This document shows positions 12,124 to 33,182 of a stretch of DNA of 34,917 nucleotides, in pieces; positions within the stretch are counted from its first letter, which is position 1, and the number at the start of each line of letters is the position of its first letter. The notes beneath the pieces are model-generated. The model ran no database searches. It had not been told where the DNA came from and was given only the letters and a program-made list of their open reading frames with translations. Both the position numbers and the translations under genes were made by a program. The DNA lies in IMG/VR virus record IMGVR_UViG_3300027898_000025, positions 1 through 34,917 of that record; one strand, written 5' to 3'. Source of the DNA: a virus.

Positions 12124-12172
12124 AGAATCCGTTGGCTCGCGCCGAATCGTCGATCCCGAGAACCGCGCGATT

Positions 12173-12439: not shown

Positions 12440-12458
12440 CTGAGACATGGAGTCTCAG
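12440..12458 (+). promoter_or_regulatory. Hairpin holding the ribosome-binding site of the next gene
   Basis: CTGAGAC and GTCTCAG form a perfect 7-bp stem around the loop ATGGA. The GGAG that would serve the GTG at 12461 (8 bases away) begins in the loop and ends in the stem, so folding would limit ribosome access. This is seen directly in the sequence; control of translation is inference. Confidence 0.4.
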
Positions 12459-12460
12459 GC

Positions 12461-16081: not shown

Positions 16082-16120
16082 GACGCGGTGCCGACGGTTC
16101 GCAAACAGGAGTTAGATTGA

Positions 16121-16940: not shown

Positions 16941-17730
16941 TGGGCTCTACGATTTTTCGCTCAGCAACGGCGAGGTCGTGCTGGAAGCGTTCTCACGCTG
17001 CCAGATCCGCGCGACCTCACTGACCGTTTATCACATGCGGGACGCCTATCGGTCGCAGAACCTATGCCTCCAAGCCTGGGCCAACAAGGGCGTCAATCTC
17101 TTCCAGCAAGTTCAGGGCGTCGTCCAGCTTGTCGTCGGGCAGGGCACTTATCTGATGCCCGACAACATCGTGTCGATCACCGATGCCTACTACAATACAA
17201 TCCTCTCGACCGGACCTGGACCGGATTGGGATGCTCCGGTCAACGACTGGCTTGAACCGCAGGTATCGGCCGATCCACAAGTGGTGATCACTCAGAGCCA
17301 GGACCGCTGGCTGATGCCGCGAGGTCGCGCCGACATCGCGATGATCCCGAACAAACAATATGATGGCTTGCCGACTATCTACTGGTTCAACCGGTTGGGG
17401 CCGCCTGGCCAGACCACGCTTACTTTCTGGCAGCCGCCACTATTCGGCTACCCGCAAGCCGCAGTCACCTATTTTGCGTTACGACAGATCCAGGACGCCA
17501 ATCTCGCGAATGGCGAGACACCTGACGTAGCGAACCGCGCGCTTGACGCGCTGTGCGCCGATGTGGCCTTCCGTCTGGCTCGCAAATATGCGCCGCAACT
17601 GATCGGCGCTCCGAATACCGGTGGCTTGCTCGACGACAAGATGGAATCGTGGGCGTTGTTCGCCGCCGAGGATACCGAGAAGGCCGAGGTGTTCATCGCA
17701 CCTCGGCTCGCTGCATACTGGAAAGTGTGA
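16912..17730 (+). CDS. Tail adaptor / head-tail connector-type structural protein (272 aa)
   Basis: The start is GTG at 16912 because AAAGGAGG lies 6 bases before it; an upstream in-frame TTG has no such site. The sequence MPQGVPGTPSGLYDFSLSNG, EVVLEAFSRCQIRATSLT, then RDAYRSQNLCLQAWANKGVNLFQ and VGQGTYLMPDNIVSITDAYY matches a widespread podovirus virion protein (LSNGEIV-EAFERC-IR ... R-SLNL-L--WAN-G-NLW). That protein is usually encoded between capsid and tail genes. The last part (ALDALCADVAFRLARKYAP) is helical. A role in closing or extending the portal is likely; the precise ring is not known. Confidence 0.65.
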   Translation: MPQGVPGTPSGLYDFSLSNGEVVLEAFSRCQIRATSLTVYHMRDAYRSQNLCLQAWANKGVNLFQQVQGVVQLVVGQGTYLMPDNIVSITDAYYNTILSTGPGPDWDAPVNDWLEPQVSADPQVVITQSQDRWLMPRGRADIAMIPNKQYDGLPTIYWFNRLGPPGQTTLTFWQPPLFGYPQAAVTYFALRQIQDANLANGETPDVANRALDALCADVAFRLARKYAPQLIGAPNTGGLLDDKMESWALFAAEDTEKAEVFIAPRLAAYWKV

Positions 17731-17734
17731 TCTG

Positions 17735-18478
17735 ATGGGCTGGGCTGATCGCGCTGGTCAGGCTACGGTCGATCCGCAAAGGCCACGTGCCTTCGGTGTG
17801 TGCGACGACTGCGGAGAATGGTACAATCGGCACAATCTCCGTGATCAATACGAGTGGTACGGCGCCGAGCTGACGGATACGCATCGGCGCGTCTGCGCTC
17901 GATGCCTTTCCAAGCCACAGGATCAGCTCCGTCCGATTTTGCTGCCGCCCGATCCGGTTCCGATCATTGATCCACGCCCGGAATATCCTAGCGTCCTGCA
18001 AAATCAGAATGGGTTTTCGTACTACGTCGGCCCACAAGGCACGACCATTATCAAACCGGTCGTCGCCGAACTCGACCCGACGATGCCGCTACCCAACAAA
18101 GCGGCGGTGCTGGCATCGGCTGCGAGTGGATGGGGCGAGCCGATGCCGGCGACTCTGATCGACCGCGGCGGCACGATCACGCTCTCTGGCGTTGGGCAGA
18201 TGATCACGGCCCCGAACCCTGCGCGTACCTATCTCTTGCTGTTCAATCCGGCGTCTGGGCTCTTGGCGGCAGCGCAGGGCATGCCGCCGGTCTTGGGGAT
18301 CTCGTCCGCCAATGTGCTGTCTCCAACCCAGGCTGAGACTGGGACGATCTTCGTGGGAACCGGATCAGGAGTGCTGCAAAACGGCACGAAGATTCCTCCG
18401 GATCCCGTATGGCTAGGTTCCGTTTGGGTGTTGGGCTTGATTCCCGGCCAGCCGTTCTTCGCTTGGGAGAATGGCTGA
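17735..18478 (+). CDS. Zinc-ribbon structural protein (247 aa)
   Basis: ATG at 17735, 4 bases after the previous stop. Four cysteines in two pairs, C23-x-x-C26 (VCDDCGEWY) and C54-x-x-C57 (VCARCLSK), form a likely zinc ribbon at residues 20-60. A Pro-rich linker (LLPPDPVPIIDPRPEYPS) and a beta-rich C-terminal half follow (TITLSGVGQMITAPNPARTYLLLFN). The second half resembles a carbohydrate-binding or virion beta-sandwich. It bridges the tail adaptor and the fibre module and has no signal peptide, so it probably stays cytoplasmic or in the virion. The stop overlaps the next start. Confidence 0.55.
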   Translation: MGWADRAGQATVDPQRPRAFGVCDDCGEWYNRHNLRDQYEWYGAELTDTHRRVCARCLSKPQDQLRPILLPPDPVPIIDPRPEYPSVLQNQNGFSYYVGPQGTTIIKPVVAELDPTMPLPNKAAVLASAASGWGEPMPATLIDRGGTITLSGVGQMITAPNPARTYLLLFNPASGLLAAAQGMPPVLGISSANVLSPTQAETGTIFVGTGSGVLQNGTKIPPDPVWLGSVWVLGLIPGQPFFAWENG

Positions 18479-18924
18479 TGCGCTGGTTGGCACTCTTCCT
18501 CTTGCTGATCTCGACGCCGGCATGGGCGACAAGCTCGATTGACCCGAATCAGCCGGCCGGGACAACTTATACCTCGGAACCGACCCGGAACAATTTCGCG
18601 GCTTTTGCCGCCGATGTGAATGCCCAGCAGAATTGCAATCGCGGTTCTATCCCCCCAGCCAATCCGCAAACTGGATATTGTTGGCTGAATGTCCTGAGTC
18701 CGACGACATATTGTTATGAAGTTTATTCTGGCTCGGGGTGGGTTCCGGTTTTTGCGATGTATCCGACGACCAATACTGTGGCTATGGCCGTGCAGCTACC
18801 GATTACCGCCCAGGCGATATTGACCGATGATTCAGGTAGATATCTGCTGACCGATCCTTCAACGGGCTCCCTGCTCACTACTCCTACGACAACATTTTCG
18901 GTGTGGCAATGCGTCGCGCAGTGA
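18478..18924 (+). CDS. Exported small fibre-like protein, paralogue A (148 aa)
   Basis: ATG overlaps the previous stop (TGATG). Residues 1-17, MRWLALFLLLISTPAWA, are a classical signal peptide with an AWA cleavage site. The mature part starts TSSIDPNQPAG and contains TRNNFAAFAADVNAQQNCN, TGYCWLN, YCYEVYSGSGWVPVFA. These match the protein at 20763-21236 residue for residue in many places, including all four mature cysteines. The C terminus has short repeats (ILTDDSGRYLLTDPSTGSLLT). The RNNF-x-A...D-N--Q segment resembles a small domain seen near the start of phage fibre proteins. Role unknown. Confidence 0.6.
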   Translation: MRWLALFLLLISTPAWATSSIDPNQPAGTTYTSEPTRNNFAAFAADVNAQQNCNRGSIPPANPQTGYCWLNVLSPTTYCYEVYSGSGWVPVFAMYPTTNTVAMAVQLPITAQAILTDDSGRYLLTDPSTGSLLTTPTTTFSVWQCVAQ

Positions 18925-20717
18925 TTGCATTCCTGACGTTGTGGTGCGCTATTGTCTTCGGTCCTTCGGACGGACGCGCACAGAGCGCTTGTCCCGCGCC
19001 GCTACCTGCCGGCACTCTATGTTTCCCGTTTCCAGCCTACACGAATGCGGCGCCTCCTGTCACGACGCCCGCGTCAACCGATCGGACGCCCTACGTGCAG
19101 GGTTCGGTGACCCATTTCATCGGGCCGTGGGCGGTGAATGACGTTCGCCAATGGGGAGCGGTGGGCGACGGCGTGACGGATGACTCTGGTCATATCCAGG
19201 CCTGTCTTAGCGCCCAGCCGCCGGGCGGTTGCTTCGCCGGGGGCAAGCGGTATTTCATCGGTAGCGGCGTGCAGATTCCAGCCGGTTCGACCTTGGACTG
19301 CGGCTATGGGATGGGAGACCTCGGCAGCCATACCAGCACACAGAGCAACCTCAACATCTACCCGGCGCTTCTGCTGACTCCAGGCAGCGGCGAGATCACC
19401 GCCAGCGGCCCCTCGGCTCGGGTCAAAGGCTGCCTGATCCTCAACAAGAACCTGACCTTTCCGGTGGCGGATAGCAGCGGCTTCGCCGGCATCGCCGTCG
19501 CCGATAACGGAAACGCTAGTTTCAATGTGGTGGATAGCGAGATCCTCGGCTTCGATACTACGATCTGGATCACCGGCAACCGGCCTTACTTGCAGCATCT
19601 GATCCTCGATGGTACGGGGATTTCAAAAGCCGCCCTCGAAATTGATGTCGGTAACACCGATAGCGGTATCGCCGACGACGTTAAGATCCAAACTGGGCAG
19701 TCTGCACCGTTTAGTTGCCCGAACGGCGAGCGCCCAGGTACAGGGGTACGTGTGGCCGGGACGCCTATCGGCGCCGCCGGCATTTTCATGAACAATATCG
19801 TCTCGCAGCCGTTTCAGACGGCTGATTACGAGTTCGATAATTCGGTGATTGCCCAGAATATCTGGGCAGACGGCGCTGGGATTGCGTGTGGTTTTGGCAG
19901 TTCAATCGGCGTTCTAATCAATAATCCCGGAGCAACCGTACAGATCGATACCCTGACGGCCGGGGATATGAATGTGCCGCTGGCGGTCAAAAATGGGTTG
20001 CTGATCGTAAACCAGATTTACGCGGAGTTGGCTGGCAGCGACGGAATCGAAGTAGGAACAAATTCGACCGCAGGACAAATATATGCGACGCAAGTTCAAA
20101 TCGTCAGTGTAGGTCGGGTGAGCGGATATGGAGTTAACTTAGAAAATGTAAACTCTAGGTTCTCTGCAAATCAGGCAACCATCCTTAGCGCCAACGGTTC
20201 CGCGGCCCCGTATGTCGCCAATACCTCCGGCTCCAATATGTACATGGGTGGGAGCGGGAACAAACAAAACCTAGTTTACATCGGCAATCTTCGCACGGAT
20301 CTATCCGTCACCACCAGCCCCTATAGCACTAATCTGTTCGCTGGAACGGGCAGTGACCCGATGCTGGCCGGGCTGAAACCCTCTCCCGGACCGATATGCA
20401 GCGACGTTGGTAGTGGCGGTACGTGCGCATTGGATTCATCGAATAGTGACCAGAATGCTGGCACGCTTGTCATTACCGCCGGGTCGGGAGCCTTGGCGGC
20501 GGGCGAGTTCGATCTCGCGATGCCGGTTAGTTTCGCCTCTGGTCAGGCGTGTGTTGCTGCTCTACAGGTTGGAACCGGCGTTTGGGATCGCTTGGCCGGT
20601 TTTACCGTTGTGGGGCCATTGTCCGGGAACGTCGTGGCCTTCGATTGGTCAAACAATAGTGTCAACCTGACACCGGGCGAGACCTATAAATTCGCGTACA
20701 ATTGCCGCCCGCTATGA
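18909..20717 (+). CDS. Pectate-lyase-type beta-helix tailspike with signal peptide (602 aa)
   Basis: ATG at 18909 (a GTG two codons earlier is also possible); it overlaps the end of the previous gene. Residues 1-25 form a signal-peptide-like start (MRRAVIAFLTLWCAIVFG then PSDGRAQSA). Residues about 76-101 carry VRQWGAVGDGVTDDSGHIQA, the hallmark of the pectate lyase 3 superfamily used by many tailspikes. A right-handed beta-helix with repeated short strands follows to about residue 480. The C-terminal part (FDLAMPVSFASGQACVAALQ onward) looks like a separate receptor-binding or trimerisation beta domain. Expected role: binding and perhaps cutting host surface polysaccharide. Catalytic residues cannot be named by eye. 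Confidence 0.75.
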   Translation: MRRAVIAFLTLWCAIVFGPSDGRAQSACPAPLPAGTLCFPFPAYTNAAPPVTTPASTDRTPYVQGSVTHFIGPWAVNDVRQWGAVGDGVTDDSGHIQACLSAQPPGGCFAGGKRYFIGSGVQIPAGSTLDCGYGMGDLGSHTSTQSNLNIYPALLLTPGSGEITASGPSARVKGCLILNKNLTFPVADSSGFAGIAVADNGNASFNVVDSEILGFDTTIWITGNRPYLQHLILDGTGISKAALEIDVGNTDSGIADDVKIQTGQSAPFSCPNGERPGTGVRVAGTPIGAAGIFMNNIVSQPFQTADYEFDNSVIAQNIWADGAGIACGFGSSIGVLINNPGATVQIDTLTAGDMNVPLAVKNGLLIVNQIYAELAGSDGIEVGTNSTAGQIYATQVQIVSVGRVSGYGVNLENVNSRFSANQATILSANGSAAPYVANTSGSNMYMGGSGNKQNLVYIGNLRTDLSVTTSPYSTNLFAGTGSDPMLAGLKPSPGPICSDVGSGGTCALDSSNSDQNAGTLVITAGSGALAAGEFDLAMPVSFASGQACVAALQVGTGVWDRLAGFTVVGPLSGNVVAFDWSNNSVNLTPGETYKFAYNCRPL

Positions 20718-20762
20718 GACTGATAGCGTTCGTCGCCAATCCGCTGGGTCATTGAGGAGCCA

Positions 20763-21236
20763 ATGCGCCGCGTTTCCCCTTTGATCGCGGCAGCACCGAT
20801 CGCATGCTTGGTCCGCGCGATCGTCATCATCGTCGCCGTCCTGGTCCTTGGCGTGCAGCCTTTTGTTGCCAAGGCCAATAGCACGATCAACCCGGCGATG
20901 CCTCAATCCGGCGTGCCCTACAACTCAGTTCCGATCAGAAACAACTTCCAAGCCGGCGCGAACGATATCAACGGTTTGCAGACCTGCAATCAGGGCGCGA
21001 CGCCCCCCTCGGCCCCGAACACCGGATATTGTTGGCTGAACACCAGCAATTCGGCGCTTTGGTGCCGCGAAATCTACAACGGCGTGTTGAGCACCTGGAC
21101 GCCGGTCTACGCGATAAATCCGATCACGCAACAGGTTACGTTTGGGTCGTGCGCCGTCACCCCCTCACTAGCCTTGGGGTTGTACTCTGGTGGAACGCTG
21201 GGTCTCTATAGTGGAGGGTCGCTTGGCTTATATTAG
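20763..21236 (+). CDS. Exported small fibre-like protein, paralogue B (157 aa)
   Basis: GAGGAG lies 3 bases before the ATG. A long hydrophobic segment (LVRAIVIIVAVLVLGVQPFV) forms a signal peptide or anchor ending near KANS. The mature part, STINPAMPQSGVPYNSVPIR then NNFQAGANDINGLQTCNQ and TGYCWLN, LWCREIYNG, aligns closely with the protein at 18478-18924. Four cysteines sit at the same places. The C terminus is a short tandem repeat, LGLYSGGT-LGLYSGGS-LGLY. The two paralogues lie on either side of the tailspike gene, which suggests duplication. Function unknown. Confidence 0.6.
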   Translation: MRRVSPLIAAAPIACLVRAIVIIVAVLVLGVQPFVAKANSTINPAMPQSGVPYNSVPIRNNFQAGANDINGLQTCNQGATPPSAPNTGYCWLNTSNSALWCREIYNGVLSTWTPVYAINPITQQVTFGSCAVTPSLALGLYSGGTLGLYSGGSLGLY

Positions 21237-23940
21237 ACGGACTCTCTATGGGGCGCTGGTTGCCCTGGTCTCGGCTGGTCCTGCCGCGGCTCAGACAACG
21301 ACCCTTGTGGGGAATATTGCGACACCGACGACGGTGCCGATGGTATCCTTCAACAATTGTTTTTATGTCGGGCAGGGAGTTAGCGGATCAACCGGAACCG
21401 ATACCAAGCTTTGTGCGAGCACAGCGGCTGGCTGGGCGAACGCTTTCGGCTTGGCGCCGATTACGACGATCGGTTCGGGACTAACTCTCAGTTCCGGCGT
21501 CTTAGCGGCAACTGGCGGCGGCGGGACGCCCGGCGGATCAAATCAAGCTGCACAGATCAACAGCTCCGGCTCCTTTGGCGCGATCGGCCCCACAGCGAGC
21601 AACCTCTTTGGCTGGAACGCATCGGGGATCGCGACCCCAATCGTGCTGGGAACGAATCTATCGCTGTCAGGCTCGACGCTGAATGCCACTGGCGGCAGCG
21701 GAACGCCGGGCGGGTCGAACGGCCAGATTCAGTATAACAATTCCGGCGCGTTTGGCGGCTTTACCTTCAGCGGCGGCATGACGGTTACGCCATCAACCGG
21801 CGTTGTCGTGCTTGGCAATCCGGGGCCTTCCACCCTCGGCGGAATCGAGAGCATCGCGCAGGCTGCCGGCGAGTTCGTTCAGTACATCGACACATCCGGA
21901 GTCCCGCATCTGGCGACGCCATCCGGCGGCGGTAATTTCAGCGGCCCCGGAAGTGCTGTCTCCAATGACCTCGTCTCGTTCAATGGCACGTCCGGCACCG
22001 TAGGCCAGGATAGTGGCATTCTCTCGACCAACGTCGTCACCGCGGCGGCCACGCTAACTTCAAATGCCCTGACCTTGGGCGGCGGCTCCAAGGCAGTTTC
22101 CGTGCTCGGGTCTCTCGGCACGACGACGACCTTGCTGCATGGCAACGGCGCCGGCCCACCATCCTTCGGCGCGGTTGTCCTGACGACCGATGTGAGCGGC
22201 GTCCTGCCCCTGGCAAACGGCGGGAGCAATGCGGCCCTGACGGCAGCCGCTGGGGCCGTCCCCTATTCCACAGGCAGCGCGTTGGCATTGCTGGCCGCCG
22301 GCACGTCGGGGCAATTCTTAGAGTCTCAGGGCGCGGCCCCGCCGATTTGGGGCTCGCCTTCCGGTTCAGGCACAGTCGGAAGCTGCTCGACGGCGGATGC
22401 GCTGGCCTACTACGCCGCGACAGGAACGACGACTAGCTGCTTGGCTGGCGTCGGCACTTCGGGGCAGGTGTTGACCAGCAACGGCACGGGCGTTGCGCCG
22501 ACATTCCAGGCCGCTGGCGGTTTCACGGCGCCCACGCTTTCCCCCGGCTTGGCTACGACGCCGGGAACCTACAATGCCGGCGCGCAAACTCTTACATCAG
22601 GCAGCACGCTGTCGCCGCAGATTTTCTACAAGGCGGAAACATCGAGCTGCACCCTCAACTCGACCTGCAATTCGCCATCGACAAACGACACGGCTCTGTT
22701 GCCGACATTCACCAATGCGAGCCTGACGGGGACTCTGCCAAATCCGAGTACGGTGGGTTCTGGCTCGTACCAGATCGGCTATGACGGCACTCACAGCTAT
22801 TCGGTGACGACGGTCGGTGGCACCGCCAGCATCTACGGTTGCGGCACGCCCGGAACGACGGTCTCGGGAATCGCCTACCAGACTCAGTTCGTTACCGACG
22901 GCACGAATTATCAGTGCATCCCGAGCGGCGCGAGCAGTGGTTCCGGCGTGACCAGCGTCGGGCTGACGGTCCCGGCCGCGTCGATCTTCGGTGTCACGGG
23001 ATCGCCGGTTACGACGAGCGGCAATCTCGGGCTGACAACGACCGTGACCTCGGGCGGTGTACTCTATGGATCTTCTGGGACGCAGGTCGCGTCGAGCGGC
23101 GCACTGACGGTAAATGCCCTTGTCAAGGGCGGTGGGGCTGGGACGGCTCCAAGTCCCTCGTCCGTGACAGACAACGGCACGATCGTAAATGCGAGCGCCG
23201 AGCCTATCCAAGTCGCTCAGGCATATTCGACTCCGGGCGCTCTGACCGATGCGTCAACGGTCGCGGTGAACGCCGCTCTCAGCAACAATTTCACCTTGCT
23301 GATGACTTCCGGGATCGGCGCGACCCGCGCGTTGGGCAATCCGTCGAATTTGGTTGCTGGGCAAGTTCTGAACTTCGTCGTCACTCAGGACCCTACAGGC
23401 GGCCGGTTGCTGACTTTCGGGTCGGATTACACGGGGACCATTGCCCTGAATGCCGGGGCAAACGCGGTAACGCCGTTCTCGTGCGTGGCAAACACCTCCT
23501 CGACCTTGCAGTGTGCGGGCGGGGCCTCGATCACTCCGGCCATCGCGCAAAGCTCTCCGTCGAACCCGACCGGCACGACATCGACGACGCCGGTCATGAT
23601 GGGGCTCGCCGGCACGCTGACCCCACTTTATAAAACCCGCATGTTCGTCTCGATCCAAGGGACGATTGCCAATTCGACGATCTCCGATGGGGCGACGGTG
23701 CGCTGCTATTTCGGGACGAGCACGGCGCCGACCAATGGTGCCGCCCTTACCGGGACCGCGATCGGCTCGGCCCGCACAAACTCGACGCTGATCGCCGGGG
23801 CCGGGGTGCCGTTCTCATGTGGGGGCTGGGTGACGGGCCTCACAGCCAACACGGCATACTGGATCGACGCGGCGGTTGCTGCGGTTACGGGCGGGACGGC
23901 CTCGATTACCGCCGTCGATATCTCCGCAAATGAGTTCTAA
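21223..23940 (+). CDS. Large tail fibre-like protein with signal peptide (905 aa)
   Basis: TTG at 21223 is chosen because GGAGGG precedes it by 4-5 bases and because it opens directly on a signal peptide (AYIRRTLYGALVALVSAGPA then AAQ). GTG codons at 21190 and 21211 are possible. The protein is Gly/Ser/Thr-rich with tail-fibre repeats: GTPGGSN-(x)-QI-x-N-SG twice, and GTSGQ(F/V)L-(x)-S-(x)-G-(x)4-P twice. The last 125 residues (PVMMGLAGTLTPLYKTRMFV to VDISANEF) resemble a C-terminal domain found on other phage fibres. Few cysteines. It overlaps the previous gene by 14 bases. Confidence 0.7.
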   Translation: MAYIRRTLYGALVALVSAGPAAAQTTTLVGNIATPTTVPMVSFNNCFYVGQGVSGSTGTDTKLCASTAAGWANAFGLAPITTIGSGLTLSSGVLAATGGGGTPGGSNQAAQINSSGSFGAIGPTASNLFGWNASGIATPIVLGTNLSLSGSTLNATGGSGTPGGSNGQIQYNNSGAFGGFTFSGGMTVTPSTGVVVLGNPGPSTLGGIESIAQAAGEFVQYIDTSGVPHLATPSGGGNFSGPGSAVSNDLVSFNGTSGTVGQDSGILSTNVVTAAATLTSNALTLGGGSKAVSVLGSLGTTTTLLHGNGAGPPSFGAVVLTTDVSGVLPLANGGSNAALTAAAGAVPYSTGSALALLAAGTSGQFLESQGAAPPIWGSPSGSGTVGSCSTADALAYYAATGTTTSCLAGVGTSGQVLTSNGTGVAPTFQAAGGFTAPTLSPGLATTPGTYNAGAQTLTSGSTLSPQIFYKAETSSCTLNSTCNSPSTNDTALLPTFTNASLTGTLPNPSTVGSGSYQIGYDGTHSYSVTTVGGTASIYGCGTPGTTVSGIAYQTQFVTDGTNYQCIPSGASSGSGVTSVGLTVPAASIFGVTGSPVTTSGNLGLTTTVTSGGVLYGSSGTQVASSGALTVNALVKGGGAGTAPSPSSVTDNGTIVNASAEPIQVAQAYSTPGALTDASTVAVNAALSNNFTLLMTSGIGATRALGNPSNLVAGQVLNFVVTQDPTGGRLLTFGSDYTGTIALNAGANAVTPFSCVANTSSTLQCAGGASITPAIAQSSPSNPTGTTSTTPVMMGLAGTLTPLYKTRMFVSIQGTIANSTISDGATVRCYFGTSTAPTNGAALTGTAIGSARTNSTLIAGAGVPFSCGGWVTGLTANTAYWIDAAVAAVTGGTASITAVDISANEF

Positions 23941-23950
23941 GAGGATGACG

Positions 23951-24511
23951 ATGATGCTGAAAAGACTGTTCCTCGCATTTGCGTTGGTGCTCGCACTGGC
24001 GCAGGGCGCAAATGCTGCCAGCCGATCGGCATGGACCGCAGGTAACGGGGTCGGTTATACATGGACCGCCGTAATGGCGTCCGGGGATATGACCTCGCTT
24101 GCCAACGGCAGTACAGTTCTATCGAGCGCCAGCTCGATCACAAACCAGACCGCTCAAGATCAGTTTATGGATCTTGGCGGGGTCTGGACTGTTGCCAGCG
24201 CAACGCCCCCGGCCGGCGCTTACATCGGCATCTATCTAGTGCCTCTGAATAGTGATGGCGCGACGTTCGGAACGGGAGAAATGGCCTCCGGTTCGACCAT
24301 CACTCGCGCCCCGGCTGCCGGTCTTGTTTGCAGCATGCCGCAAGAAACCGCCGCCGCCACAACGACACTCGCAGGAACTTGCACCGGGATCATCATCCCG
24401 CCCGGTAGCTTTAGGATCGCCGTATTCAATGGCTCCGGTGCGGGGTTAAGTTCAACCGCGGGCAACAACACCCTGCTTTATCGTACCTACAATATCAACC
24501 TCAACAACTGA
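23951..24511 (+). CDS. Exported beta-rich protein (186 aa)
   Basis: Three in-frame ATGs occur at 23945, 23951 and 23954; AAGAGG at 23939-23944 best fits the second. MMLKRLFLAFALVLALAQGA then NAASRS is a textbook signal peptide. The mature protein is Ser/Thr/Gly-rich with strands (GVGYTWTAVMASGDMTSLAN, AGAYIGIYLVPLNSDGATFG) and two cysteines. It is likely a small adhesin- or fibre-tip-like beta-sandwich. It resembles domains at the end of phage fibre proteins that end in NLYRTYNINL-type strands. No enzyme motif. Confidence 0.55.
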   Translation: MMLKRLFLAFALVLALAQGANAASRSAWTAGNGVGYTWTAVMASGDMTSLANGSTVLSSASSITNQTAQDQFMDLGGVWTVASATPPAGAYIGIYLVPLNSDGATFGTGEMASGSTITRAPAAGLVCSMPQETAAATTTLAGTCTGIIIPPGSFRIAVFNGSGAGLSSTAGNNTLLYRTYNINLNN

Positions 24512-24515
24512 TCTT

Positions 24516-25451
24516 ATGGCATACCTTACAGGATATGCGTCGATCGCTCGACGCGCGGCATCTGGAGTAATCCCGAGCATTGCGACCAGTCATCCTTTAG
24601 CGCGGGGGCTGCTCGCCGCGTACTATCCGGCGACGGCTCCCAATGGTACATTGCAGAACCTCGTAGCAGGCGGCAACGGCAATCTGACGACGCGTGTTGG
24701 CGTTGCGGTTGGGCTTTCGCCAACTCCCGAGGGACCAGGTCTTCTTTATTCCGGCCAGGCGACAGCATCATTTGGCGGCGCATGCCCTTCGACATTTCAA
24801 TTATCTTCCGGCCAATCTCTTTTTGTGAGAATGAAACGAGGGCCAACCGTCTATCAAGGTGGGCATGTTGCTTATTTATTTGGGGTTGCGATTACTTCCA
24901 GTCCGTTCAATTGCTATATTATAGGGACGGGGCTGAACGGAAGCACGGGAAATGGGCAATTAGGACTATTGTACCAAACGACCGCTTCGTCTTACATCGG
25001 AACTGCCATACTGCCTCTAAACACGATGGCTTCTGCGGGAGCTACGTTTGGGTCCGGCGCTCCCGGCAAATTGTACGTGAATGGCGCACAAGATACGGTA
25101 ACAGGTTCGCCACCAAATGTGAACATCACCACTTACACTCCTAACCCGACTATATATCTAGGGCTACAGAATACGACCGACTCTGTCTATGCCACAATCA
25201 CTGTGGCTTATATTTGGGGACGACCCCTGAACGATGGAGAGCATCGTTATCTTGACGCCAATCCCTATTCGCTGCTGCGCTGGCCGGTTGATATCGTTTA
25301 TGATACAATTGAAAATCAAACGACGGTGCTTCCATCAGGCGTGATCGTTAATAAACCCATGATTTTCTCCCCGTTGATGCTTGCGGGCGTCGGCGGTCTG
25401 GAGTGGCTACGAAAACGCAAGATCAAGATGCGGCAATTGCGGGGGCAATAA
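24516..25451 (+). CDS. LamG/ConA-like protein with C-terminal membrane-type tail (311 aa)
   Basis: Starts MAYLTGYASIARRAASG with no signal peptide, unlike its neighbours. Residues about 25-255 form a laminin-G/concanavalin-like sandwich: HPLARGLLAAYYPA at the start and AYIWGRPLNDGEHRYLDANP at the end, which is the common phage LamG signature. The tail, residues about 281-305, is MIFSPLMLAGVGGLEWLRKR then KIKMR, a hydrophobic span followed by a basic cluster. That resembles the exosortase-type PEP-CTERM ending but lacks its PEP box. The DNA at 24800-25340 is clearly AT-richer than its flanks. Likely glycan-binding. Confidence 0.6.
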   Translation: MAYLTGYASIARRAASGVIPSIATSHPLARGLLAAYYPATAPNGTLQNLVAGGNGNLTTRVGVAVGLSPTPEGPGLLYSGQATASFGGACPSTFQLSSGQSLFVRMKRGPTVYQGGHVAYLFGVAITSSPFNCYIIGTGLNGSTGNGQLGLLYQTTASSYIGTAILPLNTMASAGATFGSGAPGKLYVNGAQDTVTGSPPNVNITTYTPNPTIYLGLQNTTDSVYATITVAYIWGRPLNDGEHRYLDANPYSLLRWPVDIVYDTIENQTTVLPSGVIVNKPMIFSPLMLAGVGGLEWLRKRKIKMRQLRGQ

Positions 25452-27395
25452 GTGCGTCGATGGCTTCTTGCGGTTCTGCTGCTGCTGTTGTTCTGCGGGT
25501 CAGCCTCGGCGCGATTTCTACCCGGCGGCGGCAGCGCGCCGATTACGACCTACACGCCGCTGTGCGGCGGATCAAACCCGACGTGCATCTATACCTACTC
25601 GACCGAGCGCCAGATGGCCTCGACCGCGACCACGGCGATCCAGGTATACCGCTCGGTCGATGGTACGATGCAGGATATCGGTTTCACCAGCGCCGGGCTG
25701 GTCAACACCGCAACCGTCGATGCATTTTGCAACGCCTCGGTCGGCGGGGTGATCTCGCGTAACTGCTTGCTCGCGCAGATATACGACCAGTCGGGCAACG
25801 CCTGCCCGATCTGGAACGCCAACGCTTCGACTATGCCGGATTATTACGTCGATCCGGGGCATCAGGGGCTACCGCGGTTCCAGGCGGTGTATCAAGGCAG
25901 CGGCGCCGTATTCAGCTTCCTGCTCGACAGCGGCGGCACGACGCAGAACCCGCCCACCCATCATTGCGCCGCCTTGACCGGCCCGGCGCAATCCTTGTTC
26001 TTCGCCGGCAACAGCAGCTATGGGGCGTTCTCTTCAGGGCAGAACGGCCTCATGGAAGGTACGGTCGCGAGCGGGCCACAGGGCGCGATGTTCGCCGCCT
26101 TCACCGGACCTTCGGGATACGCCTACGATCATTGTTTAACTTCGTCACCCTGCGGCGGCATGGATACAGAAGCGCAGGGGCCGCAGTACAATTATACTCG
26201 CACCAGCAACGATGATTTCATCGATATCGCTGCGGCTCCTACCAGCGGTAACAGCCCGTGGAACGTTTGGATCAACAACGTAAATGTCAGTGCGCCGTTC
26301 GCGCCCGATAGCGTGGTTGACGCGCTAGTGACTGGGTTCCGCATGACGTGGGGCGCGTCCGGCGATCATTCTCAGCATGGGCCGAACATCGGGCGTTCTG
26401 AATCGTTCTACAACTCGGTTCTATCCTCGGGACAGGTAGCGGCGCTTTACAGCAACGAGACCAGCTTTGTTGCGGGACTGACGACCGGGTATGTCGGTCC
26501 CGGCGACAACGCGATCGCCGGCAATGAAAACAGCTATTCGACCGGCCTCACCTCGCAAAAGGTGCTGCAATTGCAGTGGCTGTCGCAGTGCTTCTCTTTG
26601 CGCAAGTGCTATGCCGGATATGAGGGGCCGGCGCTGAACGCCTGCCAGGGCAGCGGGGCATGCGAGGATATCGGTTGGGTCAACAACATCATCGACACCG
26701 CGACCCTGAGCGCGTGGTGCGGGCCGGTGAGCGGGCTCAATAACTGCGCGGCGCAGATTTGGTACAACGAGGCGCTCAACCAAGCGAGCGACACCAACGG
26801 AGTCGGCACCGGGATCGACGCCACGGCGGTATCATCGTCGAACCGGCCAGCGATCTTGTGGTCCGGCTGCGGTACTTCGGCGATCACGGTTTGCATCCAG
26901 ACCAGCGCCACCAACTACTTCACCACAGCCGGAATCACCGTCACCGGCGGATACACGATGAGCGCGGTGGCGATGCGGACCGCGGGAACGAGCGCGAGTG
27001 CGATCCTTTCCTCGGTTTCGACCCCGGAGACTTTCATCGGGTTTGGCGCGGCGAACACCTGCACCGGCAGCGCCACATCGGGCGGCGGCGCATCGACCGT
27101 GGCCTGCAACGACAATGTGGTTCACAGCATTACCGTCGATGCCCACACGTCGCCCTCCGCATCGACGATCACCTATGCCGACGGTACGGCGGGAACGGCC
27201 AACATCTCGGCGATCGGCTACAGCGCCAGCGGGCTCGGCGTCGGCGCGACCGGCGCCGGACTCGACCCTTGCGCTTGCCAGTTGAGCGAAGTGCTGGTCT
27301 ATACCGACGCGCACAACACCAGCTACAATACGGCCCTTGGCTCATCGGGCGTCGCTCTCTTGCGTGCCAATCAGCGCGCAGTCTTCGGGTTCTAG
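25452..27395 (+). CDS. Exported protein with two arabinofuranosidase-like (GH54-type) domains (647 aa)
   Basis: GTG start directly after the previous stop. Residues 1-20 are a signal peptide ending SASA, then RFLPGGGSAP. Residues 47-125 (YSTERQMASTATTAIQVYRS, DIGFTSAGLVNTATVDAFC, AQIYDQSGN) match the pattern of the catalytic domain of GH54-type alpha-L-arabinofuranosidases and of phage LamG-like relatives. Residues 376-445 (CFSLRKCYAGYEGPA, EDIGWVNNIIDTATLSAWCG, AQIWYNE) repeat the same pattern, so the domain is duplicated, joined by GYVGPGDNAIAG (346-357). Twenty cysteines were counted, an even number, which suits disulfide bonding outside the cytoplasm. Binding of, or attack on, arabinose-containing glycans is possible; activity is not proven. 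Confidence 0.6.
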   Translation: MRRWLLAVLLLLLFCGSASARFLPGGGSAPITTYTPLCGGSNPTCIYTYSTERQMASTATTAIQVYRSVDGTMQDIGFTSAGLVNTATVDAFCNASVGGVISRNCLLAQIYDQSGNACPIWNANASTMPDYYVDPGHQGLPRFQAVYQGSGAVFSFLLDSGGTTQNPPTHHCAALTGPAQSLFFAGNSSYGAFSSGQNGLMEGTVASGPQGAMFAAFTGPSGYAYDHCLTSSPCGGMDTEAQGPQYNYTRTSNDDFIDIAAAPTSGNSPWNVWINNVNVSAPFAPDSVVDALVTGFRMTWGASGDHSQHGPNIGRSESFYNSVLSSGQVAALYSNETSFVAGLTTGYVGPGDNAIAGNENSYSTGLTSQKVLQLQWLSQCFSLRKCYAGYEGPALNACQGSGACEDIGWVNNIIDTATLSAWCGPVSGLNNCAAQIWYNEALNQASDTNGVGTGIDATAVSSSNRPAILWSGCGTSAITVCIQTSATNYFTTAGITVTGGYTMSAVAMRTAGTSASAILSSVSTPETFIGFGAANTCTGSATSGGGASTVACNDNVVHSITVDAHTSPSASTITYADGTAGTANISAIGYSASGLGVGATGAGLDPCACQLSEVLVYTDAHNTSYNTALGSSGVALLRANQRAVFGF

Positions 27396-27396
27396 G

Positions 27397-29070
27397 ATGC
27401 GCCGCCTCTTCGTGGCGCTCGCGCTTCTGGTGCTTGGTTCATCAGCCGCACCGGCAAGATTTTTGCCGGGTGGTGGAAGCGCATCGAGTGGCAGCGTCAC
27501 CAACGTAATCGCCGCCGCGATCACTAACGAGAACGTGCCTCCTAGCTCGTCTCCGGGCTTTCAGATCGGTGACCTGAGCGCGACCGTGACCGGCGGCGGC
27601 CCTTGCACGACCTGCACCTGGACTATGATCAACACGGGCAGCGCGGCACAGGGCAACGGATGCGGAAGCCAAAGCAACAACTTCCAGGTTGCTAATTTTG
27701 GAAGCGGCGCTGCGCACTTAGAGGTGCTGAGCAGCGGCCTGACCGCTCGGATCTGGGGTGCGACGCCGACGGCAGTATCTTCGTCATCGGAAACATATAT
27801 CTGCGCCAAGGCGACCCCAGCCGTGGGTGCGTCTTATGTGTTCGCGTTCTCGATCATCGTGCGCGCCCCGATGATCACCAGCGTCTCGCCGCGGAAGGTT
27901 CAGTACACACTAGGCGTGGCACAGTCGATACCGCTCTCGGCGACGATATGCTGGACGAATTGCCACCAAGGCGGATCGGCGCCGACGCCGACCTTTACCT
28001 TGGGCAGCGATGCGGCCTGCACCGCGTCGGGCATTTCGATCTCCGGCTCAAGTCTCAATCTCAGCTCGTCCTACGCTGGCGCTGGCGTTTGTCACATTGT
28101 AGTTGCGGCGACTGGTGCGAACTGCGCGGTCCTCGGCTACGTCACGGCTACGCCGACGACGTGCAACGCGGCCGTTAATATCACGCAAGGGGCGTATGTT
28201 GGCCCCGGCGACGACTCGGCGCTCGCTGGCCTCACTTGGTATGTTTGGGCCGAGCCATACGCCTTCAGCGCCGCCTACGCGGCGGCTGGTGGGCCGATCT
28301 GGAAGGTCATCCGCGAGAGTGATCAGCAGCCGTTCACGATCAACGCCCTATCAAACGGCGACATGGACGTTGCCACCATGGCGACCGATTGTGACACGTC
28401 GATCTGCGCGCTGGATGATCCGGTGGATCAGAGTGGCAACAGTCCGGCGAACGATATACCGGCGTGGTCTAATAGTCACGGTTCCCCGCCACCCGTGACT
28501 ATTTGGCATCCCATAGTATTGTTCAATAGTATAAACGGCTCGATGCCGGCTTATAATTCCAGCAATCCTAATGACAGGCTACTGTATAACCCCACCACCT
28601 ATACTGGCGCAGGAACAACGGGAACGCTTGGCATCGTCGCCCAAACAATCAGTGTCCCCGGATCTAATAGTTATTTGATGGCATTTAACGACGGGGTGAC
28701 ACCGGGAACATTCTTGTATTTTCCGTCATCTGGCAACGGCGGCGGTGCGGGCGTGTGGGTTGGGCCGCACAACTTCACCGGGGGAACTGGCATCCAGGAT
28801 ACAGCGCCTGCTGCGGGCGCGTTCCACAGCATCATTGCAACCATCAACGGTACGAGTTCGATCCTGGATGCGGATGGCAATCAAACTACGGGAACATTGG
28901 GGACTGCGGCTATCAATAAGCCGGCAGGAATATTTGGCGATTTCGGCGGCGGCTCCAATACGGGTAACGGCGTCGGCTTCTTTATCTTGGCGTCCGTTCT
29001 AACATCAACGCAACTCAGCGTCCTCTGCACGTATGACCAGATAAATTTTGCGACGAGTGGGTCATGCTGA
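27397..29070 (+). CDS. Exported modular protein, Ig-like plus LamG-like domains (557 aa)
   Basis: ATG one base after the previous stop. MRRLFVALALLVLGSSAAPA is a signal peptide, followed at once by RFLPGGGSA as in the preceding protein. Residues about 30-155 and 158-262 look like two beta-sandwich (Ig/cadherin-like) units. GAYVGPGDDSALAG at 265-278 repeats the linker of the previous protein. Residues 280-557 form a LamG/arabinofuranosidase-like domain with PVDQSGNSPANDIPAW in the place of the YDQSGN motif. Fourteen cysteines were counted. A perfect 11-bp hairpin lies inside the gene at 28471-28503. Likely surface glycan recognition. Confidence 0.6.
   Translation: MRRLFVALALLVLGSSAAPARFLPGGGSASSGSVTNVIAAAITNENVPPSSSPGFQIGDLSATVTGGGPCTTCTWTMINTGSAAQGNGCGSQSNNFQVANFGSGAAHLEVLSSGLTARIWGATPTAVSSSSETYICAKATPAVGASYVFAFSIIVRAPMITSVSPRKVQYTLGVAQSIPLSATICWTNCHQGGSAPTPTFTLGSDAACTASGISISGSSLNLSSSYAGAGVCHIVVAATGANCAVLGYVTATPTTCNAAVNITQGAYVGPGDDSALAGLTWYVWAEPYAFSAAYAAAGGPIWKVIRESDQQPFTINALSNGDMDVATMATDCDTSICALDDPVDQSGNSPANDIPAWSNSHGSPPPVTIWHPIVLFNSINGSMPAYNSSNPNDRLLYNPTTYTGAGTTGTLGIVAQTISVPGSNSYLMAFNDGVTPGTFLYFPSSGNGGGAGVWVGPHNFTGGTGIQDTAPAAGAFHSIIATINGTSSILDADGNQTTGTLGTAAINKPAGIFGDFGGGSNTGNGVGFFILASVLTSTQLSVLCTYDQINFATSGSC
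28471..28503 (+). repeat. Perfect 11-bp inverted repeat inside a coding region
   Basis: AATAGTCACGG at 28471-28481 and CCGTGACTATT at 28493-28503 pair perfectly around an 11-base loop. The stem is long for coding DNA. It lies at a switch from GC-rich to AT-richer sequence within the 557-residue protein gene. No run of T follows, so a plain terminator is unlikely. Confidence 0.6.
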
Positions 29071-32000
29071 TCCGGCGCTTGTTGCTGGTGGCGGCCCTGC
29101 TGATCGGGGTGGCACCCACTGGCTCGGCGCGGTTCCTGCTGCATAGCGGCGGTTCGAGTGGAACATCCTCGGGTGATGTTGCCAGCATTACCGAGCGAAA
29201 CACCGGACCATCGACGACACCGGGCTCGACTTTTCCCGCGCAATTTGCGGCAAACTTTGCACAGGATGCGGTTCCCGTCGGATCGATTGCCGTGCCGAGC
29301 ATCGGCGGATCGTCGATTGTCTATCAGAACGATTGCGCCGCCGAGGGTTGCCCGATGTGGCCGGCGCACGGCGCTTCGCCGGCATCGTTGAGGCAGGGGA
29401 TCTTCTCGGTCATTGAGCCGCAGCTCGCTAGTACTTCTGAGCAGACCGCGCATTTCACGGTGACAGCCGGCTCCTACAATACGACGACAACCGTAACTCC
29501 GGCGTCTCTAGCCGCTCATGACGATTGGGTAATGACCCTGAATCATGTCAATGATTCCTGGGTCAACACTCATCCGGCGGCAATGAATGTCCCGCACGGA
29601 ACCTATGTCGGCTGCTATGCGGACCCAACGACGCACAGCATTACGAGTTGCGGGGTTCAACAGCACGCACCGACCACGACGAGTGGCCTGATTGGGCAGA
29701 ACTGCTCAAACCAAGGGGCTGGCGCTTGTACCGGATACACCTACCTAGCCGGCGTAGCTACAACCACATCCTCCACGCTCCCTAACACGATCTACTTCGA
29801 CCCAACCGCGAGCCAGCCGTCATTAAATCCGAATTGCATCAATAACTGCGTGCGTATCGGATCGGTGGTAACCGACGCCACCACGAGCGGCGTGATCCCA
29901 TCTTTGGCAACCGTGGCCCTCAGCGGCACGGGCTCGACGACGTCAACCTCGGCGGGCTCATTGGCTGGCGCGACGACACTTACATTCGCCAGCACTCCGA
30001 CCGCGCCTCAATACGCCTTGGTTGTTGATGTAAACACTCCATCGGCAATCACGGCCGGGACTTATGTTTCAGTCACGCCGAGTTCGGGAACCGTGACGAT
30101 CTCGGCGCCGGTTACTGGCCCTGGCGTCGGATCTGGCGACACGATCAAGTTCTATACGTTCGTCCAGCTATCGGCGAACGTAACCGCCGGAGGAGTCGCA
30201 CAGGGTGATAGCGTCAATTTCAGCTATACCGTGTTGGGCTCGACCGGGACGCCGGCGGCGATCAGCTTCAATCAGACAAACAATCTGGTCACTTCGGTTA
30301 ATGTTCTTACGCCGGGTTCGGGATACGCGACCGAGGGTAGCGGGACATGGGTATTCGATTTTAATACGATCTTGAATGAGTACGGCTCGACTCAGCCGCA
30401 TCAATGCGATCAGGTTGGCGGAGCCGCGACCTTTACCGGAACTGTCTCTGGAACGAGCCTCACATCATCGGCGGTGACCGGCACGATCTCGCTCTTGCAA
30501 GTGGTTACCGACTCCGCCACCCCGCCACACACTGCTTTGATCACCGCGGGCTCCGGGTCGAGTTGGACGGTCGCGAACGGCACCCTCGTATCTGGAGCCA
30601 TGTCGTCGAATGAGCCTCTATGCATCTACGGTCAGGGCACTGTGGCGGCGAAGTACCAACTCTGGGGGCCGTACATCGACACGACGACTGGTGCGCGGCA
30701 CCCGTGGCTCTATGGTCGCGGCACCATCGAGGCGTGGACCAATGGAACCGGCTCTATCGTCGAAACCCGTCCCGTCATGGGAACCACGACGGGAATGGTT
30801 TATGTCAACTCGGTAATCCCGAGCTACACCTTCGACGCTGAGTGGACCGATAACGGAACGACGGTGCGCGGGGCCTCGATAGGATCGTCTGGGTTCAACG
30901 CGATCGTACAAGAGAACAACGGCATTTGGTATTCGGTTGGGACCACGGCCAACAGTCTCGGGCCGCCGCAGAGCGGTCGGCCGGATTGGAGCGCCAACAG
31001 CGATGCTTTCAACAACGTCATCCTAGCTTTCACGACACCAGACAAGGTGTTGTTTAAGGCGTCAGGTGCGCAACTGCCGCTTAACGATTGCCTGAGCGCC
31101 GGGCCACCCCCATCCAACTGTAGCGGGACCGCTGTTTCGGTAACGCCGGCAATCTTGCCGGCGATCTCGCTTACTAGCTGGGGCTCGCCTTCGACAATGG
31201 TGAATACCTACGTGCCGTACACGTTCGGCGGCATGGATACGAACCTTACCTTGTCGGGCGGCGGCAATCATTGGTGGTTTGGCCCGGTCCCAACGCACGC
31301 CATCTATTGGTACGAAAGCACCGATTGCTCGCCCGTAAGCAGCAGTTGCGACCGCGGCGCATCTTGGCTCAACAATCTTCGGGTTGCGTCGATAGCCGAG
31401 CTTGGCACGTTCGATGGAATACGGGAACCCGCTACCTACAATCCGGTGAACGTCGTCAGCGACACGTCAGTTTTCAGTAACCCAGCTTTCACTGATACAG
31501 TGAAAACAAAGTTCAATTTCCGTGGCGACACGAATGTCTTCGGAACTGTATCCGGCGGGGCGTATCCACATAGTCTCGATAGATCACTTGACGATCCGAC
31601 GCACTTCGTTCCTCTTCCGCCCTCTATGTATGTCCTCGAAGGCGAGCGCTTTATGCTGGATGGCTTGGAGGGATTTACCTCTGGCGATCAAATACATTAC
31701 AATCTTACCGGCAACAGCGGCGGCACTACTCTCGGCAGCGCCACGACGCTCACTTCGCTCGGCACGACGTATTATGGCATATTCCTGGATAATAGCCCGC
31801 GCGGTATGGGGTGGTCGTGGGATTCCCTGCGGGAAAACGCCACTCTTAGCCCGCCGAACGAGCCGATCGGAAAGTATTATAGGTTTCTACAGGAAGAGAA
31901 CTATGACTTTCAGTTGGCCTTCATACCTTACGTCGGAAGCGGAACCGTCGGCAGTAGTCTGACGTTTACGAAGGGATATGATCTCACAAATATCGGTCTA

Positions 32001-33182
32001 TTCACGAGCCCTCAAATCCTTTCAACCAACAACATAGCCCCACTGACAATCCTGTGGCAGGATTACTACTGGCACATGGGTGAGGAAGAAGGCGCCATGT
32101 TACAGGGCGTCGGCGGCTCAACAGCGGCGGCGGCGGTCGATAATATCATCCTCAATAATTACGCCGTCAAGAATCCTGCCGTGAACTGCGTCTTCAATGA
32201 TCTCTCGTACAGCAATCTTTGGGCCGACGAGGCGACGCAAGTACCTAATGCTAATTGGGATGCGACCAATCCGGCGACGGCGACGCGCTTCAACGGCTAC
32301 CGTAACACGACGATTACCGCAATCGGCGGACAGTCCGAGGTTTCGGCGTCGCTATTTAATGCGGGATTTAGCGGCAATACTCAGATGACTGCCGCGACAA
32401 CGGGTGCTGGATCGGCAGTCAATGTCACGTCTATCCCCGGCAGCGTATTGATCGGCGGCATCATTTACGATCAGACGACGCCGAGCGCTATCGTACCACC
32501 TGCGGGATCTAGCTTCGCATGGATTACGGCGACCGGCGGAACGACTATCACTATGTCGGGAACCACTACAGGCATTACGGCTGGCGATGTGATTCAGGTT
32601 TCAGCGAAATTGATTTATCCGCTCAACGGAGCTAATTCGGCCGCGATCCCTGGCGACAGCATAATTTCGCCGATCAACGCAGATACGGCGGATGAAGGGG
32701 TGCCAAATGGCTTTAATATCGGCACCTTTCCGCCACCGTCCACTCCCTCGATAGTAGGTGGCACGCACTATTATTGGTGTCCCGATCAAAACGGCCTCTC
32801 GGTCGGGGCGGCGGCTGGATATATCAGCACGACGCACTGCGGGATCGCGAATAGCACCATGACGCCGATCATGTTCACGGGTGGCGTACCGGTCGGCGGC
32901 ACTTCGGCAGTTAACCAGTTTCAGGTCGGCTGGGTTCCTAATCGAAGCTGCCCGACTGGTATTCCGGGGCAGTCCTCGGATTGGCAGGGTGGGTCCGAGA
33001 TCGGCGGCACGCAGTCCTACGGACTCGAAATGCTGGCGACCGTCAAATCCGACCAGGCCATCCGCGGCGTGACGGCCGACAACACGGCGGCGATCGCCAA
33101 CCTCGCGCCGTACTGGCCGCCCTCGTCCCTGGCCGGGCTCCCGAGCTGGGCGACCTCGCAAACGCTGACGCCGGGTCCGTGA
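29064..33182 (+). CDS. Very large exported fibre/adhesin-like protein (1372 aa)
   Basis: ATG overlaps the end of the previous gene by 7 bases. MLIRRLLLVAALLIGVAPTG then SARFLLHSGGSS forms a signal peptide and a variant of the ARFLPGGGSA motif. Residues up to about 550 are Ser/Thr/Gly-rich repeats of Ig- or fibre-like strands with many cysteines (DCAAEGC, NCINNC). The centre, about 700-1080, is richer in aromatics (GGGNHWWFGPVPTHAIYWYE, ILWQDYYWHMGEEEGAM) and may be a folded glycan-binding or hydrolytic domain. The acidic HMGEEEG segment could hold catalytic acids, which is speculative. The C terminus is again beta-rich. No family is firmly recognised. Confidence 0.55.
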   Translation: MLIRRLLLVAALLIGVAPTGSARFLLHSGGSSGTSSGDVASITERNTGPSTTPGSTFPAQFAANFAQDAVPVGSIAVPSIGGSSIVYQNDCAAEGCPMWPAHGASPASLRQGIFSVIEPQLASTSEQTAHFTVTAGSYNTTTTVTPASLAAHDDWVMTLNHVNDSWVNTHPAAMNVPHGTYVGCYADPTTHSITSCGVQQHAPTTTSGLIGQNCSNQGAGACTGYTYLAGVATTTSSTLPNTIYFDPTASQPSLNPNCINNCVRIGSVVTDATTSGVIPSLATVALSGTGSTTSTSAGSLAGATTLTFASTPTAPQYALVVDVNTPSAITAGTYVSVTPSSGTVTISAPVTGPGVGSGDTIKFYTFVQLSANVTAGGVAQGDSVNFSYTVLGSTGTPAAISFNQTNNLVTSVNVLTPGSGYATEGSGTWVFDFNTILNEYGSTQPHQCDQVGGAATFTGTVSGTSLTSSAVTGTISLLQVVTDSATPPHTALITAGSGSSWTVANGTLVSGAMSSNEPLCIYGQGTVAAKYQLWGPYIDTTTGARHPWLYGRGTIEAWTNGTGSIVETRPVMGTTTGMVYVNSVIPSYTFDAEWTDNGTTVRGASIGSSGFNAIVQENNGIWYSVGTTANSLGPPQSGRPDWSANSDAFNNVILAFTTPDKVLFKASGAQLPLNDCLSAGPPPSNCSGTAVSVTPAILPAISLTSWGSPSTMVNTYVPYTFGGMDTNLTLSGGGNHWWFGPVPTHAIYWYESTDCSPVSSSCDRGASWLNNLRVASIAELGTFDGIREPATYNPVNVVSDTSVFSNPAFTDTVKTKFNFRGDTNVFGTVSGGAYPHSLDRSLDDPTHFVPLPPSMYVLEGERFMLDGLEGFTSGDQIHYNLTGNSGGTTLGSATTLTSLGTTYYGIFLDNSPRGMGWSWDSLRENATLSPPNEPIGKYYRFLQEENYDFQLAFIPYVGSGTVGSSLTFTKGYDLTNIGLFTSPQILSTNNIAPLTILWQDYYWHMGEEEGAMLQGVGGSTAAAAVDNIILNNYAVKNPAVNCVFNDLSYSNLWADEATQVPNANWDATNPATATRFNGYRNTTITAIGGQSEVSASLFNAGFSGNTQMTAATTGAGSAVNVTSIPGSVLIGGIIYDQTTPSAIVPPAGSSFAWITATGGTTITMSGTTTGITAGDVIQVSAKLIYPLNGANSAAIPGDSIISPINADTADEGVPNGFNIGTFPPPSTPSIVGGTHYYWCPDQNGLSVGAAAGYISTTHCGIANSTMTPIMFTGGVPVGGTSAVNQFQVGWVPNRSCPTGIPGQSSDWQGGSEIGGTQSYGLEMLATVKSDQAIRGVTADNTAAIANLAPYWPPSSLAGLPSWATSQTLTPGP

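Follow-up and report, generated by a model that had tools for sequence, protein, structure and literature searches.

The DNA analysed here is a 34,917-nucleotide stretch of viral origin, read on one strand (IMG/VR record IMGVR_UViG_3300027898_000025, positions 1 to 34,917; hereafter the window), and our subject is a module of nine consecutive genes at 18478-33182 whose products appear to be tail fibres and spikes with Sec-type signal peptides. The first 200 bases of the window correspond to position 18771 of IMGVR_UViG_3300006162_000018, a 52.6 kb record with capsid and fibre proteins 100% identical to those of the window, which, judged by its length, stops about 1 kb short of the window's end. 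In what follows, L numbers label loci and G numbers label virus records, G001 being the same virus as the window. A portal protein is encoded at 5797-8037 and is related to the portals of a group with Caulobacter phage RW and Pelagibacter phage HTVC023P among its members. A homologue of the major head protein follows at 13117, then tail/adaptor genes and then the module, which thus sits directly behind the tail-tip/adaptor genes in the slot of tail fibres and receptor-binding proteins.

All nine open reading frames (ORFs) that a sequence-only reading of this DNA had placed in the module were found at their positions on the forward strand. Signal peptides were scored with our own semi-Markov model of n-, h- and c-regions (basic, hydrophobic and cleavage regions), which uses hand-set tables, and a score of at least 14 was taken as a pass. 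Eight of the nine N-termini scored as secretory (best-start scores 14.5-33.4), in agreement with the Sec-type signals proposed by that reading, and on this scorer all eight have a basic n-region, a hydrophobic h-region and small residues at -3/-1. The two genes directly before the module (16873..18478, forward strand), assigned to tail/adaptor functions by position and homologues, are signal-less (0.2 and -6.2); their homologues occupy the same place before signal-bearing genes in L008 and L009.

The first module gene (18478..18924) encodes a 148-amino-acid (aa) fibre protein, with a predicted signal at residues 1-17 cut between AWA and TSSIDP (score 20.0), a fibre N-terminal domain of the STI[DN]P/WLN type and four mature cysteines. 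It is homologous (47% over 93 aa) to the product of 20763..21236, a fibre protein with the same type of N-terminal domain behind a cut between AKA and NSTINP and again four mature cysteines; this scores 14.5 from an internal start and 10.5 from the first ATG, and both versions give the same predicted cut. A short tandem repeat, LGLYSGG(S/T), lies at its C-terminus. Between these two, 18909..20717 encodes a spike-like protein of 602 aa with a signal (15.2 from 18903, 14.6 from 18909), 12 mature cysteines and a short match to a PHROG 'tail protein' family (phrog_13893, E 2.5e-5 over 30 aa). A long repetitive fibre of 905 aa follows (21223..23940; score 17.4, 12 mature cysteines), which matches phrog_4757 (unknown function, E 1.5e-6) and has a stretch in common with a fibre of L050 (47% over 89 aa), and then a small signal-bearing protein of 186 aa with two mature cysteines (23951..24511; 33.4 from an upstream start, 27.0 from 23951). 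The sole signal-less member of the module (24516..25451; score 2.6, two cysteines) is LamG-like, with a Laminin_G_3 match below the cut-off (E 0.0031). Its C-terminus holds a hydrophobic stretch followed by RKRK, resembling a tail anchor. The last three genes encode cysteine-rich, signal-bearing proteins: 25452..27395 (647 aa, 20 mature cysteines, score 26.7, start directly after the upstream stop) and 27397..29070 (557 aa, 14 mature cysteines, 26.6 from an upstream start and 25.8 from 27397), both with the predicted mature N-terminus RFLPGGGS, and 29064..33182 (1372 aa, 18 mature cysteines, score 21.1, mature N-terminus RFLLHSGGS). The last has cysteine-rich homologues in G005, among them L022_2266 (27% identity over 797 aa). 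Searches with phmmer against the PDB with the 25452, 18909 and 29064 products gave nothing at E 0.1, and viral scans with the 25452 and 18909 products returned the same virus only. Structure models built for the mature 18909 product by itself and for the C-terminal 850 residues encoded by 29064 were of no use, with mean predicted local distance difference test (pLDDT) values of 37.4 and 29.4.

The scorer was checked on several sets of proteins. Among the 20 other forward-strand ORFs of at least 90 aa in the window, 19 scored at most 3.4 and the one at 15341 scored 13.4, none reaching 14. Homologues of this ORF (15341-16081) in L014 and L015 scored 14.8 and 16.2; the family is virion-type and looks conserved, and is probably a non-secretory false positive. 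As a bacterial control, 38 proteins from a 48 kb stretch of E. coli K-12 were scored, with export labels that we assigned ourselves. All six labelled as exported passed, as did 3 of the 32 others, all of them membrane proteins (MalG, MalF and ActP, the last marked beforehand as possibly signal-bearing). Among the 26 lambda, P22 and T7 proteins scored, only two passed, Lom of lambda at 17.7 and, at 15.7, the spanin Rz, which is an anchor; no fibre or spike of these phages passed, the highest being lambda orf314 at 11.6 and the others lying below 0. Wrong start codons were rejected as a source of the signals, since gene junctions fix several of the starts, those of 18478, 25452, 27397 and 29064 lying within 7 bases of the upstream stop. 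No mature window protein has a cysteine at +1 of its predicted cut, as a lipobox would give. We consider it very improbable that the signals are functionless hydrophobic N-termini produced by chance or composition. The module proteins have a high content of Ala, Gly, Ser and Thr, shuffled N-termini pass in 55 of 4000 cases, and the 15341 family lies close to or above the cut-off although it does not look secretory; against this, the signals occupy eight of nine adjacent genes, no internal window of the nine module proteins passes (0/548), and both the recurrence in other phages and the cysteine parity described below (one-sided p = 4e-6) are unexpected by chance.

Proteins that fold where disulfides form should have their cysteines paired and thus even in number, and paired cysteines in turn point to an oxidising compartment. 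The sequence-only reading had noted abundant cysteines, even in number in some products; we count 21 in the 25452 product, 20 of them after the signal, 14 in the 27397 product and none in the capsid protein. The mature cysteine number is even in all eight signal-bearing proteins of the window (4, 12, 4, 12, 2, 20, 14 and 18, the 20763 product being counted from its cut site). A hand-picked list of 27 rows, from which 24516 (no signal), one partial gene and one near-duplicate were dropped, gave even numbers in 23 of 24, but omitted some signal-bearing ORFs of the same loci, such as L033 17220 (1 cysteine). An automatic cluster count was made on ORFs of at least 100 aa from the window and 47 loci, excluding L001-L003, L020, L021 and L049 as duplicates and L053 and L054 as signal-less contrasts. 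It gave even numbers in 17/17 clusters with a signal versus 60/134 without. The larger count covered 581 proteins of at least 200 aa in 444 clusters (loci L001-L107 minus E. coli, named and control phages included); here 27 of the 30 cysteine-containing clusters with a signal were even versus 160/346 without (one-sided p = 4e-6), and with at least four cysteines the figures were 21/22 and 115/198. A host with an oxidising cytoplasm was rejected on the same signal-less clusters, of which 160/346, and 115/198 with at least four cysteines, are even. In the 29064 family, homologues that are 25-32% identical differ in the placement of many of their cysteines, which largely form close local pairs when judged by eye.

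The position of the predicted cuts was examined in one family of fibre N-terminal domains. The alignment held 18 signal-bearing members, with predicted signals removed, and 7 signal-less members; the members were hand-chosen, some being close relatives and one incomplete. Predicted mature starts fell at alignment columns 0-9 and the start codons of the signal-less members at columns 3-7, indicating that the signal is probably an exact prefix of the domain, cut where the signal-less homologues start. Within the first 95 residues, 12 of the 18 signal-bearing members have two cysteines (the remaining six have 0, 0, 1, 1, 3 and 4) and the signal-less members have none or one (Mann-Whitney p = 4e-4). 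Over the whole protein the number is even in 18/18 members with a signal; the signal-less members have 1, 3, 1, 1, 3, 3 and 2. This alignment and the cysteine parity strengthen the earlier proposal of signal peptides and folding in an oxidising space.

Hydrophobic N-termini serving as virion anchors had been an alternative in the sequence-only reading. More broadly, an uncleaved N-terminus could work as a membrane or virion anchor. Such a signal anchor, similar to those of signal-arrest-release (SAR) endolysins, could for example hold the fibre at the inner membrane until lysis or insert into the host membrane on infection. The scorer passes MalF, MalG and lambda Rz, and SAR endolysins provide a phage precedent in the available part of the source (PMC6116005). 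However, the predicted cuts coincide with the starts of signal-less homologues, and the cysteines before the cut in 18909, 20763 and 25452 must be excluded for parity to be even. Within the STI[DN]P group, identity is lower over the signal than over the following domain in 21/21 pairs (medians 25%, ungapped, versus 48%), as if the signal diverges faster. The A-x-A-like sites also sit at the domain boundary of the family and speak against an anchor, though the scorer favours such sites. We regard anchoring, including the virion anchors proposed earlier, as improbable. The mature starts of the 25452, 27397 and 29064 products and of L022_2266 are R[FL]L..GG-like peptides, which may be a docking tag uncovered by signal peptidase. 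Letters of the [FYL]L..GG type occur within the first 12 residues of 5/45 signal-bearing versus 0/536 signal-less proteins in the larger-count set, which is redundant, the pattern having been picked after the sequences were seen.

A capsid search returned 17 loci besides the first. Among records with at least 68% capsid identity whose fibre region was both covered and read, 7/7 have signal-bearing genes there (G001, G003, G005, G007, G008, G010 and G012). G015 (37% capsid identity), which was read in part, has signal-less fibre-type genes. A ~100-aa signal-bearing protein with four mature cysteines lies beside the fibre genes in both L025 (13402-13695, G005) and L004 (11843-12151, G003), the two being alike by eye. 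Some signal-bearing ORFs of the relatives also lie outside the fibre region. In L019, which covers G001 upstream of the window, one such ORF (8743-9405, 199 mature residues, score 21.4) lies outside the fibre module, and two fibre-like ORFs (12111-12692 and 15564-16187) are signal-less with 1 and 0 cysteines, a contrast within the same phage. Relatives with signal-less fibre genes have a few small non-fibre ORFs that score 14-19. In HTVC023P (L073), two adjacent proteins behind the capsid gene (29263-29919 and 29953-31338) score 14.2 and 14.0.

To look beyond this group, the mature N-terminal domains of 18478, 20763 and the G007 spike were used as queries with the signal removed, so that the search was not biased towards signals. 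Six loci were returned, four being phages already found and two new (L050 and L051), and a similar query led to L055, a prophage carried by a Burkholderiaceae metagenome-assembled genome (MAG). All three have a baseplate-J-like gene (by eye) upstream, and their signals end 0-3 residues before STI[DN]P. A mature-domain profile run over 398 genomes from the MAG's phylum gave five matches, the only strong one being to the MAG's own prophage; among the weak matches, L067 and L069 are signal-less family members, L068 has no fitting ORF and one contains stops. In 294 genomes of the MAG's family, the MAG alone was matched.

With the L050 and L051 domains as queries, a named phage was found, Bradyrhizobium phage ppBdUSDA122-1. 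Directly behind its gpJ-like gene lie WAX24264 (signal, 6 mature cysteines) and WAX24263 (signal, 18 mature cysteines). The latter is annotated as a tail fibre and matches the Pfam Collar domain above its cut-off (E 2.9e-10) and PHROG tail fibres (E 2.8e-28). The trait thus recurs across tail types, including in a named phage, and this fibre homology led us to reject host secreted genes gained by chance. A query with WAX24263, signal included, returned 22 loci, with a signal-bearing match in 13 (one of them the same phage, one with a frame that runs off the contig and one cysteine-free) and not in nine, which include two same-gene pairs. The 11 closed signal-bearing ORFs with cysteines have 18, 6, 6, 10, 12, 12, 8, 12, 6, 16 and 8, and the seven distinct signal-less ORFs 16, 3, 3, 12, 2, 0 and 0. 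Among the eight loci of a gpJ query, the genes behind gpJ are signal-bearing in five (L100, L101, L102, L103 and L105, of which L100 is ppBdUSDA122-1, also read as L052) and signal-less in L106 and L107; L104 ends inside gpJ. A gpJ relative occurs in 91 named records, and in the seven read besides ppBdUSDA122-1 the gpJ-adjacent fibre-type genes are signal-less (7/7). One of these, ppBeUSDA76-1 (B. elkanii), has a signal-scoring ORF (20.7, 2 cysteines) three genes on. Small signal-bearing proteins are also encoded near the fibre genes in L050 (7634-7984) and L052 (14067-14426), of which the L052 one carries the annotation RlpA-family lytic transglycosylase, and the L050 one looks similar to it by eye.

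Export without attachment to the virion is the strongest rival explanation. The proteins would be exported and disulfide-bonded but would act at the host surface or matrix, by decorating or modifying it, or as free glycan-active enzymes released at lysis. The signals and the parity fit this equally well, lambda Lom is encoded between J and stf and scores 17.7, and Bdellovibrio exports phage-fibre-like MAT proteins outside any phage, according to the accessible text of PMC10769870. L033 14959 of G012 matches the PHROG 'pectin lyase activity', a family filed under morons and not tail; together with a GH43 match below its cut-off in the relatives and the Laminin_G_3 match of 24516, it points weakly to the glycan-related folds suggested earlier for the module. 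On the other hand, WAX24263 combines a Phage Tail Collar domain with matches to tail-fibre PHROGs, and the gene that takes the place after gpJ in RHph_Y3_1 encodes a signal-less protein matching a tail-fibre PHROG. The signal is also followed immediately by the conserved fibre N-terminal domain. Moreover, in the 15.7 kb of ppBdUSDA122-1 that was read, no annotated signal-less fibre gene follows the tail-tip genes, save the gpJ-like gene. On balance we find export without attachment doubtful, at a clearly lower probability than the reading given next, yet above that of an anchor. From the earlier suggestion of exported, possibly non-virion proteins we thus keep the export; the proteins would belong to the virion itself, as fibres that mature outside the cytoplasm.

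We hypothesize, with a probability of roughly 0.6, that the module encodes real tail fibres and spikes that are exported by Sec, cleaved, disulfide-bonded in the periplasm and joined to tails at lysis. The sequence gives good support for export and oxidation; attachment to the virion is inferred. Receptor-binding fibres and spikes would be made as Sec precursors and pass to the periplasm via Sec, signal peptidase I would cut exactly before the tail-docking N-terminus, and all cysteines would pair as disulfides in the periplasm. Heads and tails would be built in the cytoplasm as usual; when lysis proteins break the envelope, the two pools would meet and the fibres would dock on tails at or after lysis. 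P22 spikes can reportedly be added to finished particles from outside. We give about even odds to the stricter form, in which capsid and tail in the cytoplasm and disulfide-bonded fibres in the periplasm are joined only at lysis, through the N-terminus uncovered by signal peptidase, so that fibres could mix between infected cells or lysogens.

Several observations weigh against the hypothesis of exported virion fibres. The scorer favours Ala at the cut by design, the 15341 homologues indicate that it errs above 14, and the passing of MalG, MalF and ActP means that the score alone cannot separate a cleaved signal from an anchor. Parity has exceptions: L051_4279 in the hand-picked list has five cysteines, and 3 of the 30 signal-bearing clusters are odd (L033 17220 from the G012 fibre region, L081 3025, which is antisense, and L090 398, which has a weak score). 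Signal-less clusters with at least four cysteines are themselves even slightly more than half of the time (115/198). Fibre-type genes are signal-less in G013 (54% capsid identity), HTVC023P, RW and MW202675, so this kind of virion can do without the trait, and the moron filing of the L033 14959 family adds to this side. The Pfam scan of the window's module proteins found no family above its cut-off, and their PHROG matches (phrog_13893 and phrog_4757) are weak. Most of them are thus identified as fibres through their place in the gene order, the domain they share and their relatives. Finally, nothing observed directly shows a mechanism by which fibres would dock at lysis.

Textbook accounts place the assembly of tailed phages entirely in the cytoplasm, and the system described here is one of known parts, tail fibres, on a new route, Sec export. 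Classical tail fibres and spikes (T7 gp17, P22 gp9, lambda stf; PF07484) have in common with the module the gene slot behind tail-tip/adaptor genes and a modular build, and WAX24263, a Collar-domain tail fibre, links the two through PF07484. Those scored are signal-less, whereas the module proteins carry a Sec signal and paired cysteines. Lambda Lom is likewise signal-bearing and encoded next to J and stf but differs in being annotated as an outer-membrane host-surface protein, and we know of no fibre features in it. The pIII and pVIII proteins of filamentous phages are virion proteins with cleaved signal peptides; these unrelated phages are assembled and extruded at the inner membrane without lysis. 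The Sec-exported endolysin Lys44 of fOg44 and the SAR endolysins show that phages use host Sec in lytic growth too, but these are lysis enzymes and not virion proteins (PMC6116005). The MAT chimeric fibres of Bdellovibrio bacteriovorus are likewise phage-fibre-like, with a conserved ~130-aa beta-rich domain right after the signal peptide and a trimeric adhesive tip. They differ in that their genes belong to a predatory bacterium and that the cell, not a phage, puts them to use (PMC10769870, accessible text). Phage target proteins of diversity-generating retroelements are without signal peptides in the accessible text of PMC6199706. No report of signal peptides on tail fibres was recognised in the available parts of the open-licence full-text literature.

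If the hypothesis is true, receptor-binding proteins that travel via Sec would constitute a second assembly route, used in several tail types. It would explain the cysteine-rich fibres and would link the success of a phage to the Sec, signal peptidase and disulfide-forming functions of its host. Shared 'public' fibres would become possible, and the receptor-binding proteins of a virion need not match its genome. Possible benefits are disulfide-stabilised fibres in soil, glycan-binding or glycan-cutting proteins kept from cytoplasmic precursors, and the sharing of fibres. Signal-bearing sugar-active genes of soil viruses are often read as auxiliary metabolic genes, and caution is warranted, as they may be tail fibres. 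With ppBdUSDA122-1, which is named and whose host strain is known (B. diazoefficiens USDA 122), the reading becomes directly testable. A group of soil phages thus appears to route its host-recognition fibres through the ordinary protein-export channel for disulfide folding.

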